A DNA stretch of 41,753 nt from Pleurocapsaceae cyanobacterium CSU_1_1 (GTDB lineage: Bacteria; Cyanobacteriota; Cyanobacteriia; Cyanobacteriales; Xenococcaceae), in the NCBI GenBank assembly GCA_012034765.1, contig JAAUOU010000031.1, positions 1-41,753 on the forward strand, given 5' to 3'. The notes beneath the pieces were generated by a model. It was not told where the DNA came from, ran no database searches, and saw only the letters and a list, made by a program, of their open reading frames with translations. Numbering within the stretch: the stretch's first letter is position 1; each line of letters opens with the position of its first letter. Shown here piece after piece: positions 35,053 through 39,381 of the stretch. The position numbers and the translations under genes were made by a program.

Positions 35053-38000
35053 ATGAAGAAGTTTTCCTTGAATTGTGTCCTAATTGGAGAAGGAAATTTA
35101 TTAACTGAGTGTGCTGAAATACTAATTAGGAACAATTATCAAGTCAGTGCAGTCATATCTACCGATCAAGCGATCGCTCGATGGACAGCAAACCGTAATA
35201 TTCTTTATTTTAAAAATCTTCGGCAATTTCAACAAATATCTTCTCCAGCTCAATATGATTATCTATTTAGTATTGTCAATCACACTATTTTAAATCAAGA
35301 AATTCTCAATTTAGCCAAGACAGCAATTAATTATCACGATGCACTCTTACCAGCTTATGCTGGAGTAAATGCCACTTCCTGGGCGATTATCAACGGTGAA
35401 AAACAACACGGGATTACCTGGCATGAAATGAAGCTAGAGGTGGATACTGGGAAAATATTAAAGCAGGTAAAAATAGAGCTTGAGCCTTCAGAAACCGCCT
35501 TAACTCTTAATGCCAAATGTTATCAGGCAGCAATTGTTTCTTTTCAAGAATTGGTTGAAGAATTAGCAACTAAAAAAATAACTTTTAAGTCTCAAAATTT
35601 ACAACAGCGTAGTTATTTTTCGCGACACCAAAAACCTCCAGCATTGGGCATAATTGATTTTAATGCTTCAGCTACAGTAATTGATAATTTAGTTAGAGGT
35701 TTAGATTTTGGTAATTATCCCAATCCTCTAGCTACAGCAAAACTAGTTTTAAACTCCACTTCAGGTCTAGACTATGTAATTGTGACAAAAGTTACAGTGT
35801 TGAATACCTTATCTTCACAATTGCCTGGAACAATAGTTAAGATTGAAAAACAAAGGTTAATTGTCGCTACAGGCAGCCAAGATATTGCCCTAGAAACTAT
35901 TGTCAGTCAACAAAAACAAACTCAATCAATCGCTGAATTAGTTGCCAATTATCAATTAGAAATAGGACAAAAGCTACCAGAAATCGACGCTCAATTGATA
36001 GCTCAATTAGTTAAACTTGAAAGCGAAATTGCACCATCACAAACCTATTGGGTCAAACAATTATCGAAGTGCCGACAGTTAACTTTACCTTTTGAGCAAA
36101 TACCCATAGCTTCGGCACAGAATAACTGCAATAATTATCGCCAAGTTAAGTTACCTCTAAGCTCAACAGTTACTAATTTGCTGCAAGATTCTTTGGCAGT
36201 TAGCATTGCTGCCTTCGCGATTTATTTAGCTCGTTTGAGTGGCAATAATCGCATCAGTCTGGGATTTGATCGGCTCACTAGCGATCTTCATGCTCCTTGG
36301 TTCGCTCGATATGTACCCTGCAATTTAAGCATTAAACTCGAACAGGATTTTACTAATGTCTTAAAAACAGTAACTAATAAACTGAGGCTTAACCAACAAC
36401 ATCAAACCTATTCAACCGATATTATGGTTCGATGTCCCGAACTTGTTGCTCGACAAACTAATTTTTCAGTTGCTGTAACTCAACTAAGTCGAGATGCCTT
36501 ATCCCCAGAAAATTTGATCGTTGCCGATCTCACTTTAATTATTGACCGACAACAAGCAGAATACTTTTGGTCTTATAACACTCAGCTATTTTCAGCACAA
36601 ATTATTGAGACAATGATCGAGCAATGGACGATCTTGTTAGTAGCAATTGCTCTTCACTCGCAATGTCCCGTCGCTGAACTGCCTTTAATATCTACCTTTG
36701 AGCGTCATAAAATCTTGGAGGAGTGGAACGATACTAAAAGTAACTATCCCCAATGCTGTCTTCATCAACTATTTGAAGCAAAAGTAGCCGAACATTCTCA
36801 AGCCGTGGCTATAGTTTGCCAAGGGAAATACTTAACCTATGGAGAATTAGAGCAAAAAGCCAATCAATTGGCTTGTTATCTGCAAAGTTTGGGAGTTCAA
36901 GCCGAAACCTTAGTTGGAATCTGCCTCAATCGTTCCTTAGAAATGATTATCGGTCTATTTGCCATTCTTAAAGCAGGTGGCGCTTATTTACCTTTGGACC
37001 CGAATTATCCGACGGCGAGACTGACCTATTTATTAGACGATGGTGGAGTAGGGATTCTGTTAACTCAAGGTAAATTACTCGATCGCTTACCCGAAACCTC
37101 AGCCAAGGTTGTTTGTTTAGATCAAGACTGGCAGGAGATCTTAGCGGTCAATAACCAGCCTATTAGCAATGTCAATAGTCATAATTTAGCTTATGCGATT
37201 TACACTTCTGGGTCGACGGGAAATCCCAAAGGAGTCGAAATCGAACATCACAGCGTGGTTAACACCTTATTTGATATTGAACAACGTTTTAAAATTAGCT
37301 CTCAAGATAGCGTTTTAGCAGTATCTTCCTTAAGCTTCGATCTGTCGGTATACGATATTTTTGGATTGTTGGGATCGGGTGGTAGGGTGATTATTCCTCA
37401 GCCCGAAAATTGCCCCAACCCAGAACACTGGCTAAAATTAATCATCCAAGAAAAAGTCACTATTTGGAATTCAGCCCCAGCTTTGATGGAACTGCTGCTC
37501 GACTATATCATGACGAATCAGCGGACATTGCCTCAATCTCTGCGCTTAATTTTACTGAGTGGCGATCGCATTAGTCCACACCTGGTAATACAGCTACAAA
37601 CCCTTAACCCACAACTACAAATTATTAGTTTAGGAGGGGCAACAGAAGCATCAATTTGGTCAATTTATTATCCTATTAAGAACTTAGCTCCCTCGACCAA
37701 AACGATTCCTTATGGTCGTCCGCTTAATAACCAATCTTTTTATATCCTCGATCCAAAATTACAGTTAGTGCCAATTGGAGCGACGGGAGAACTTTATATT
37801 GGTGGAGTTGGTGTAGCCAGAGGTTATCTGCATCGGGAGCAATTAACCGCCAGTAAATTTATTCTTGATCCTTTTAGTAATTGGGCAACAGCTCGTCTCT
37901 ACAAAACTGGAGATTTAGGACGCTATCTCGAAGATGGTAATATCGAATTTTTGGGGCGTATTGATAATCAAGTAAAAATTCGCGGCGTTAGAGTCGAACT

Positions 38001-39381
38001 AGGCGAAATTGAAGCCACTCTATCACAATATCCAGGAATCACAGAAACTATTGTGGCGATCGCGAATCGAGCAAAGGGTATCGCTTCTGATAATTCCGAA
38101 CAGACAACTATAGTTGCTTATTGTGTTTCAAAACTAAAATCAATAACTAGCAAACAACTACGCGACTTTCTCAAAACTAAATTACCTGAGTACGCAATTC
38201 CAGCGACGTTTGTTTTTTTAGACTCTGTGCCTTTAACTCCTAATGGCAAAATCAACCGTCAAGCGCTACTTGAACTACCATTAAATCAGCTAGAAACAGA
38301 AAATGATTTTCTCCCGCCTCAAGATACCTTAGAATGGCAGTTGAGTCAGATTTGGTCGCGAATTTTAAATGTTAAACCGATTGGTAGAGATGATAACTTT
38401 TTTGAATTGGGAGGTAATTCCTTATTAGCGTTACGCTTGTTTGAGCAAATTCAAACCACCTTTGGTAAAAATTTACCCTTAGCGACGCTCTTTCAAGCAC
38501 CGACTATTGCCCAATTAGCTAGCTTAATGCTAGAGCAAGGATGGTCTGCTTACTGGTCTTCTCTGGTGAGTATTCAACCCCATGGTGATCAGTCTCCTTT
38601 ATTTTTGGTCCATGCCGTTGGCGGGAATGTATTGGGTTACCGATGGTTAGCCGAAGCGTTAGGAACAGATAGACCTATTTATGGGCTACAGGCAAGAGGT
38701 TTGGATGGTCAACAAACACCACTAACTTCAATTAAAGAGATGGCTGCTAGCTACCTTGAAGAAATCAAACTAATTCAACCCCAAGGACCTTATTTTTTAG
38801 CAGGACACTCTTTTGGTGGTTTCGTAGCTTTTGAAATGGCACAACAACTTGTCCAACAAGGAGAAACAGTCGCTTTTCTGGCCCTATTTGACTGTTTTGG
38901 ACCCAATGACCACGATAAATCTACATTGGCACAACGGTTAGGGATTCACATAAATAATTTAAGCGCATTATCATTAAGGGAAAAACTAGCTTATTTCACA
39001 GACCGATTTGAATATATTTTACAATCTAAAATGCCTTTTGCTTGGCAACAGAGATATTCTAAACTAGCCAATTTAATGCGTTCTCCAGAACAAAGGTTGA
39101 TCGCTCAAATTCAAAATATTAACTTGCAGGCAAAAGAACAATATACACCTACTGTTCATGAGGGAAAATTAACTCTTTTTCGCGCTCAAGCTAGACAGGT
39201 TAACGGTTATTTCGATCCCGATGGAGGTTGGCAAGGACTGGCATTGGGCGGAATTGATGTTTATGAAGTTCCTGGCACGCATACTAGCTTATTACTTAAG
39301 CCAGAAAATGCCCAGATACTTGCAGGAAAACTCAAAGCCATTCTGGCAAATTTTACGCTAAACCTCAGCGGGATGAGCTAG
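35053..39381 (+). CDS. Single-module NRPS: formyltransferase, partial C, A (Cys-type), PCP, TE
   Basis: 1442 residues. 1-~175: formyltransferase like Met-tRNA formyltransferase, with Asn93, His95 (NYHDALLP) and Asp131 (EVDTG) matching its catalytic residues; ~210-310: FMT C-terminal-like domain. ~325-560: C-terminal part of a condensation domain with no HHxxxDG, so probably inactive. ~575-1075: adenylation domain (YTSGSTGNPKG near 717, GELYIGGVGVARGY, YKTGDLGRY); my reading of the specificity residues is D-L-Y-N-L-S-L-I-W-K, a known cysteine code. ~1085-1160: carrier domain, phosphopantetheine site Ser1123 (GGNSLLAL). ~1170-1435: thioesterase with Ser1253 (GHSFGG) and His1410. Prediction: cysteine is loaded, perhaps formylated, and released. 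No other biosynthetic genes flank it. AT-rich upstream DNA, ATG start. Confidence 0.93.
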   Translation: MKKFSLNCVLIGEGNLLTECAEILIRNNYQVSAVISTDQAIARWTANRNILYFKNLRQFQQISSPAQYDYLFSIVNHTILNQEILNLAKTAINYHDALLPAYAGVNATSWAIINGEKQHGITWHEMKLEVDTGKILKQVKIELEPSETALTLNAKCYQAAIVSFQELVEELATKKITFKSQNLQQRSYFSRHQKPPALGIIDFNASATVIDNLVRGLDFGNYPNPLATAKLVLNSTSGLDYVIVTKVTVLNTLSSQLPGTIVKIEKQRLIVATGSQDIALETIVSQQKQTQSIAELVANYQLEIGQKLPEIDAQLIAQLVKLESEIAPSQTYWVKQLSKCRQLTLPFEQIPIASAQNNCNNYRQVKLPLSSTVTNLLQDSLAVSIAAFAIYLARLSGNNRISLGFDRLTSDLHAPWFARYVPCNLSIKLEQDFTNVLKTVTNKLRLNQQHQTYSTDIMVRCPELVARQTNFSVAVTQLSRDALSPENLIVADLTLIIDRQQAEYFWSYNTQLFSAQIIETMIEQWTILLVAIALHSQCPVAELPLISTFERHKILEEWNDTKSNYPQCCLHQLFEAKVAEHSQAVAIVCQGKYLTYGELEQKANQLACYLQSLGVQAETLVGICLNRSLEMIIGLFAILKAGGAYLPLDPNYPTARLTYLLDDGGVGILLTQGKLLDRLPETSAKVVCLDQDWQEILAVNNQPISNVNSHNLAYAIYTSGSTGNPKGVEIEHHSVVNTLFDIEQRFKISSQDSVLAVSSLSFDLSVYDIFGLLGSGGRVIIPQPENCPNPEHWLKLIIQEKVTIWNSAPALMELLLDYIMTNQRTLPQSLRLILLSGDRISPHLVIQLQTLNPQLQIISLGGATEASIWSIYYPIKNLAPSTKTIPYGRPLNNQSFYILDPKLQLVPIGATGELYIGGVGVARGYLHREQLTASKFILDPFSNWATARLYKTGDLGRYLEDGNIEFLGRIDNQVKIRGVRVELGEIEATLSQYPGITETIVAIANRAKGIASDNSEQTTIVAYCVSKLKSITSKQLRDFLKTKLPEYAIPATFVFLDSVPLTPNGKINRQALLELPLNQLETENDFLPPQDTLEWQLSQIWSRILNVKPIGRDDNFFELGGNSLLALRLFEQIQTTFGKNLPLATLFQAPTIAQLASLMLEQGWSAYWSSLVSIQPHGDQSPLFLVHAVGGNVLGYRWLAEALGTDRPIYGLQARGLDGQQTPLTSIKEMAASYLEEIKLIQPQGPYFLAGHSFGGFVAFEMAQQLVQQGETVAFLALFDCFGPNDHDKSTLAQRLGIHINNLSALSLREKLAYFTDRFEYILQSKMPFAWQQRYSKLANLMRSPEQRLIAQIQNINLQAKEQYTPTVHEGKLTLFRAQARQVNGYFDPDGGWQGLALGGIDVYEVPGTHTSLLLKPENAQILAGKLKAILANFTLNLSGMS

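Follow-up and report, generated by a model that had tools for sequence, protein, structure and literature searches.

The gene at positions 35053 to 39381 of a 41,753-nucleotide stretch of DNA from the Pleurocapsaceae cyanobacterium CSU_1_1 (contig JAAUOU010000031.1; the whole stretch is referred to as the window) is an intact enzyme gene encoding a variant of the nonribosomal peptide synthetases (NRPSs) with a formyltransferase domain, not a new class of enzyme. Its product joins a formyltransferase, a half condensation domain (C*), an adenylation domain (A), a carrier (T) and a thioesterase (TE) in a single chain. We rate as slightly better than even the chance that this is a self-contained, one-gene synthetase in which cysteine is loaded, N-formylated on the carrier and released by the TE as N-formyl-L-cysteine or a direct derivative, with C* serving as a scaffold.

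Domain organisation

The gene is a single open reading frame (ORF) with an ATG start and is stop-free throughout, while the one frame read on the opposite strand is full of stops. Pfam assigns every domain above its cut-off, in the order Formyl_trans_N (F), Formyl_trans_C (FC), condensation C-lobe (C*), A, T and TE; the order and coordinates given in the original prediction for this DNA are the same.

35053..39381, + strand: one-module NRPS gene F-FC-C*-A-T-TE, 1442 amino acids (ORF and Pfam)
35053..35637, + strand: formyltransferase catalytic domain (Formyl_trans_N), residues 1-195, with N93, H95 and D131 (Pfam, alignments)
35638..35976, + strand: Formyl_trans_C (OB-like), residues ~196-308 (Pfam; Foldseek of model)
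35977..36747, + strand: C*, a condensation C-lobe alone, homology from residue 328 to ~567, without HHxxxDG (Pfam, hhalign, model)
36760..38286, + strand: adenylation domain, residues 570-1078, code DLYNLSLIWK (Pfam, alignment)
38320..38532, + strand: carrier (PP-binding), residues 1090-1160, S1123 in LGGNSL (Pfam, alignment)
38575..39378, + strand: type I thioesterase, residues 1175-1442, with S1253, D1280 and H1410 (Pfam, alignment)

The scores are 65.2 bits for Formyl_trans_N, 44.6 for Formyl_trans_C (cut-off 21.1), 37.3 for Condensation (cut-off 30.6; profile positions 153-456 only), 293.9 for AMP-binding, 31.9 for AMP-binding_C (cut-off 24.5), 57.7 for PP-binding and 111.3 for Thioesterase. 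A Formyl_trans_N domain with the N-x-H and D residues is thus fused upstream of A-T, as in the initiation modules of formylating NRPSs, but the TE follows directly after T and the protein has no further module, so that it is not the first module of a multimodular line. GC content within the gene is 35% in F and 34% in FC against 41% in A and TE, perhaps a trace of separate origin.

The structure prediction that had been suggested for this protein was run with AlphaFold, and the models were used to judge confidence and secondary structure and for Foldseek matching, with no weight placed on how the domains are arranged. The model of residues 1-574 has a mean pLDDT of 86.6, and its formyltransferase front matches the ArnA/Fmt fold over ~309-326 alignment columns. 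The model of residues 1-1166 (mean pLDDT 82.8, pTM 0.67) matches chains of the NRPS modules LgrA, Txo2, McyB and EntF with root-mean-square deviations (rmsd) from ~7 to >30 A, which supports the folds and not the layout.

Catalytic residues, substrate code and predicted reaction

Six one-module cysteine-type proteins with a TE, the window protein included, share identical formyltransferase (N93, H95, D131), carrier (S1123) and TE (S1253, D1280, H1410) residues, and the claim that all three active sites are intact is thereby sustained. The formyltransferase triad is invariant in the 23 rows of a first alignment (A1); in a second alignment of 48 rows (A2) the Asn and the His are kept in all 48 and the Asp in 47. 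The TE has the GxSxG serine, the Asp and the His of the type I family (PF00975), and the last two align with those of the solved NRPS 4zxh.

The specificity code of the A domain was read from a MAFFT alignment as D763 L764 Y767 N806 L834 S836 L860 I868 W869 K1066, the positions having been matched by motif to what we take to be the GrsA numbering. The resulting code, DLYNLSLIWK, is found in five of the six proteins; the sixth (L091) has DLYNMSLIWK, and apart from this Met at position 299 all catalytic and code residues are identical across the six. Both versions of the code are listed in a paragraph on cysteine-activating domains (PMC12283262), in agreement with the cysteine code proposed at the outset, and the substrate is therefore predicted to be L-cysteine.

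On this basis the A domain would activate L-cysteine and load it onto S1123 of the carrier, whereupon F-FC would formylate the alpha-amine of the carrier-bound cysteine with N10-formyl-tetrahydrofolate as donor, a step suggested by the intact N93, H95 and D131 and by the precedent of LgrA. The C-terminal TE implies release: it would accept formyl-cysteine on S1253 and free N-formyl-L-cysteine, most simply by hydrolysis, and the product may later be oxidised to a disulfide, or cyclised.

The gene is maintained by purifying selection, as judged from substitution rates. The ratio of nonsynonymous to synonymous substitutions (dN/dS) is ~0.30 against the orthologue L021 (0.037/0.125) and ~0.18 against L088 (0.106/0.601), the latter compared from a few residues past its start; it stays below 0.45 in every domain for both, with 0.36 and 0.19, respectively, for F. 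The frame is open in six loci from five genomes, one of which (L022) is cut by a contig end before the first residues.

Genomic surroundings

Synteny holds between the window, L021 and L088 across the parts they have in common (75-99% identity between matching neighbours, with a few ORFs unmatched), and the other three cysteine-TE loci, namely L022 (of which only the downstream side is available because of the contig end), L090 and L091, lie among different genes. Weak similarity (28-32%) links a kinase-like ORF of the window group to ORFs near L022 and L091. No conserved partner gene was found across the six loci; since neighbours are shared only among the three syntenic ones, none travels with the window gene, and together with the purifying selection this suggests a working one-gene pathway. 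The immediate neighbours in the window encode a DUF1400 protein and a 149-amino-acid protein without a Pfam match. A promoter scan gave 12 matches where 14.7 were expected and a terminator scan two where 3.9 were expected, and no clear motif was seen in the aligned upstream regions of three loci. Elsewhere in the same genome Formyl_trans_N occurs in three further places, on contigs 192, 118 and 126.

The half condensation domain

A profile of FC-C* (48 rows, 46 used) was compared by hhalign with a profile of 19 canonical condensation (C) domains of length 462, and aligns from window residue 328 to canonical residues 191-462 with a probability of 99.7%. The HHxxxDG motif lies at position 108 of the canonical profile, outside the aligned part; the entire N-lobe is absent from C*, and with it the condensation active site, whose lack the original prediction had noted. 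The two-lobed PF00668 architecture is accordingly represented by its C-lobe only. In heterocyclisation (Cy) domains a DxxxxD motif takes the place of HHxxxDG within the N-lobe, and no such site is present either. A concealed condensation or Cy active site was considered and rejected, the N-lobe being missing.

It is most likely that C* does no condensation and has been kept as a scaffold which rests against the A domain and keeps F in position, given that the catalytic lobe has been lost while the C-lobe is retained. In a tree of C-lobes the 19 canonical domains and four others, including two orphan proteins from the same genome (contigs 51 and 149), lie on one side of a branch with 98/97 support, and the F-linked C* on the other. 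The grouping is not perfectly clean, as the F-C* association requires five changes and several branches are long. The six cysteine proteins form one group with support of 100/98 in the C* tree and, more weakly, 84/68 in the F-FC tree (L094, a duplicate of L021, was left out of counts and trees, and L025 out of the trees). L089 and L092, which lack F, sit among the F-linked C*, a placement consistent with loss of F. Among the more distant copies (L022, L090 and L091) the lowest identity of any domain is that of C* (37-42%, against 56-60% for F, 47-55% for the TE and 69% for A), which would fit a structural part.

Several observations weigh against this picture. Compared with L021, the identity of C* equals that of F (91%), and its dN/dS is lower than those of F, FC and TE (L021) or of FC (L088). 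Of 54 F-bearing ORFs, 21 give no blastp match to the window C* after F, although three of these (L039, L041, L046) end before or inside C*. Pfam reports no Condensation match in L051, L026 and L036 (E<=1e-5) or in L105 (1e-3), and in L091 the match is under the cut-off; for these five the evidence for C* is the alignment, of whose 48 rows 46 have W333 and 47 have R460. Support for C* is hence good in the window protein and those closest to it, and weaker in part of the wider family. As regards the product, the A-domain code is an indirect predictor of substrate, the product itself is predicted from sequence, and the TE might use the free thiol to form rings or oligomers. Nor do the cysteine-TE loci share a transporter or regulator that would support an exported product. 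Finally, half-C-A-T-TE proteins without a catalytic formyltransferase exist (L089, L092 and one on contig 51 of the same genome), so F is not essential to the general design.

Distribution and related architectures

The original prediction held the domain order to be rare, which is half right: the one-module cysteine form with a TE is uncommon among the proteins read, and F-FC-C* is not rare. Window residues 1-566 served as the query, and the source genome was counted in each set. Matches occur in 12 of 386 genomes of the phylum (E<=1e-30) and, at E<=1e-20, in seven of 27 genomes of the family and 49 of 388 of the order, the latter two sets including C*-only or partial matches (e.g. G405, G495). 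A collection of named genomes added 25 loci matching at least part of F-FC-C*, among them loci in Pleurocapsa sp. CCALA 161 (two), Burkholderiales, Pelosinus and Rhodothermales, and the supposed rarity of this front end is rejected.

The domain order was read in 54 distinct F-bearing ORFs, the window included and some cut by contig ends. They comprise the six one-module cysteine-TE proteins, two other one-module F...TE proteins (L104, code DVESIGAISK; L105, code DIESLGTVSK), 23 proteins with a long insert, ten in which F follows a C region, and 13 others that are starters of NRPS or polyketide synthase (PKS) lines, fragments or free-standing. The six proteins of the one-module cysteine form with a TE come from five of the 13 genomes of the window's genus (three of those lacking it are just 81-91% complete) and from none of the 14 other genomes of the family. 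Of the 49 matching genomes of the order, 31 were read for domain architecture (the source genome included, some loci on contig ends), and the other 26 of these 31 did not show the form; with 18 genomes unread, its restriction to one genus is provisional.

The 23 long-insert relatives (L023, L026-L030, L032-L035, L037, L038, L040, L042-L044, L051-L056, L106) are glycine-type F-FC-A starters from Burkholderiales, Rhodothermales and cyanobacteria, whose A domain has an insert of ~360 residues and a code beginning DIL (two were read in pieces). The insert is luciferase-like by Pfam in two of them and is assigned in the other 21 from the ~360-residue gap between A motifs; KS-like ORFs follow in L026 and L028. 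Among the ten post-C cassettes, nine (L050, L095-L097, L099-L101, L103, L107) have a C region with an exact HHxxxDG upstream of F, Pfam finding an almost complete C domain ahead of F in L095 and three stretches that match Condensation in L103; the tenth (L093) has 536 residues ahead of F in which the exact motif is absent. Nine of the ten reach an A domain, all with a code like DAEDIGTVVK, which we take to specify a basic amino acid such as lysine; a literature search for this code and four variants found no paper, and one for the starters of rhizopodin, tolytoxin and luminaolide yielded nothing of use.

Further relatives were noted. L089:6862-10767 reads FC-C*-A-T-TE-like and retains its Formyl_trans_C match, and its catalytic N-terminal formyltransferase domain is absent, also by tblastn of the 16-kb locus. 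In the source genome, L057:6695-10150 (contig 51) is a one-module half-C-A-T-TE protein without formyltransferase and with an odd code, IVRDAGIGVK, in which the usual first Asp is missing. L058:3759-7379 (contig 149) is another one-module protein; it has matches to A, T and TE, and its code is DAEDIGTVVK, as in the post-C cassettes. In L046 (G103) an in-frame TGA splits the F-FC-C* cassette between the formyltransferase part and the remainder.

We tentatively propose, as a possibility that falls short of even, that F-FC-C* represents a single mobile formylation cassette of old origin, formed when a complete Fmt-like formyltransferase replaced the condensation N-lobe while the C-lobe was kept. 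Its cyanobacterial uses would be as a starter, as a one-gene cysteine synthetase making a formylated thiol metabolite, and downstream of C domains in longer lines, where its target would not be the alpha-amine but another group, such as a side chain.

Alternative readings

The strongest competitor, which we nevertheless regard as unlikely, is that the TE, instead of hydrolysing, links units by way of the free thiol or forms a ring, so that the product would be a formyl-cysteine thiolactone, a thioester oligomer or 2-thiazoline-4-carboxylate. With the amine capped by formyl, the thiol is the sole side-chain nucleophile left, and the conglobatin TE is iterative on chains whose proposed first unit is formyl-glycine (PMC4504003). 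Moreover, DLYNLSLIWK and its variants have been linked to Ox-modified moieties, and carrier-bound cysteine together with Ox to thiazole (PMC12283262). The window protein, however, has neither a Cy domain nor an N-lobe able to hold a Cy site, and no partner gene is conserved alongside it in all loci.

Many of the F-FC-C* blocks that were read resemble starters of longer lines, and the protein might likewise be a loading module that passes formyl-cysteine in trans to a separate NRPS or PKS. A potential recipient is encoded on contig 37 of this genome, in a cluster that has NRPS and PKS-type ORFs and one A domain with the same cysteine code. Such an arrangement seems improbable, because the carrier is followed by a TE and not by C or KS, and because the window gene lies on a different contig (60) with neighbours that are shared in the syntenic loci only. 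The contig 37 cluster itself (L059/L060) is large, with the cysteine-code A domain in L059:5036-8110 and a reductase-like motif in L060:6608-10258.

There is an equally small chance that F is a passenger without formylation activity and the protein a cysteine-specific A-T-TE; half-C-A-T-TE proteins lacking F do occur in the same genus (L089, L092), but the conserved triad and the low dN/dS of F in the two orthologues speak for its retention. That the gene is a decaying, functionless remnant of a larger assembly line, as its incomplete C* and lack of partners might suggest, is very improbable, given the open frames, the dN/dS values in every domain and the branching of C* with other F-linked C*, apart from the canonical C-lobes compared. 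A one-gene route to N-formyl-L-cysteine or a direct derivative remains our preferred reading.

Comparison with known systems

The predicted product is not new to biology, contrary to the initial impression that no such compound was known: N-formylcysteine has been reported as a metabolite that forms by way of timonacic when formaldehyde reacts with cysteine (PMC9814826), and Bacillus subtilis DefB is named as an N-formylcysteine deformylase (PMC4703394). If the product is confirmed, the gene would provide a dedicated one-gene route to a compound whose described origin is from formaldehyde and cysteine. Our literature search, with most subscription journals outside its range, found no enzyme that makes N-formylcysteine on a carrier protein; it also found no one-module formylating NRPS, and the palmerolide paper makes no mention of formyl. 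C* would in addition allow a clean test of a non-catalytic role of the C-lobe for the A domain. The fmq (FQC) cluster, presumably fungal, also has a truncated C* domain, in a description that mentions no formyltransferase.

A 2022 review describes F domains as scarce and always located in the initiation module, and names three N-formylated peptides made by one (PMC8949500). Against this placement, ten of the 54 F-bearing ORFs have F downstream of a C-type region (nine with an exact HHxxxDG), and one lineage has F in a stand-alone cysteine enzyme. The closest relatives of residues 1-306 in the PDB, by sequence and fold, are WbkC, ArnA and methionyl-tRNA formyltransferase (Foldseek TM 0.85 for target 2bln), which share the N-x-H and D residues but act on nucleotide sugars or tRNA instead of a carrier-bound amino acid.

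Among NRPS systems, the anabaenopeptilide synthetase has F in its initiation module but is multimodular (PMC8949500), a likeness drawn from its description. The discodermin and calyxamide lines of Entotheonella, reported after that review, also contain a formyltransferase, in discodermin within the predicted loading module (PMC12858407), and there the Fmt modules are parts of multimodular peptide synthetases, unlike the window protein. The formyl-glycine starters of conglobatin, oxazolomycin and rhizopodin likewise fuse F to A in the initiation module (PMC4504003); the conglobatin starter has a predicted glycine specificity and is followed by PKS modules, where the window protein has a cysteine code and a TE.

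LgrA of linear gramicidin synthetase (F-A-PCP, PCP being the peptidyl carrier protein) offers a further parallel, with an N-terminal formylation domain before A and PCP and N-formylation on the carrier described as shown in vitro (PMC4504003). When the whole protein is compared with the PDB, LgrA entries rank first in sequence as well as in fold, with a whole-chain rmsd of >20 A that reflects shared domains, not layout. Its F domain matches weakly (19.6 bits, residues 63-165), whereas sugar N-formyltransferases reach up to 78.8 bits. In LgrA the A domain follows F within ~66 residues, leaving no space for FC or C*, and the module, which lacks a TE, opens an assembly line, while the window protein interposes FC and C* between F and A and ends in a TE of its own.

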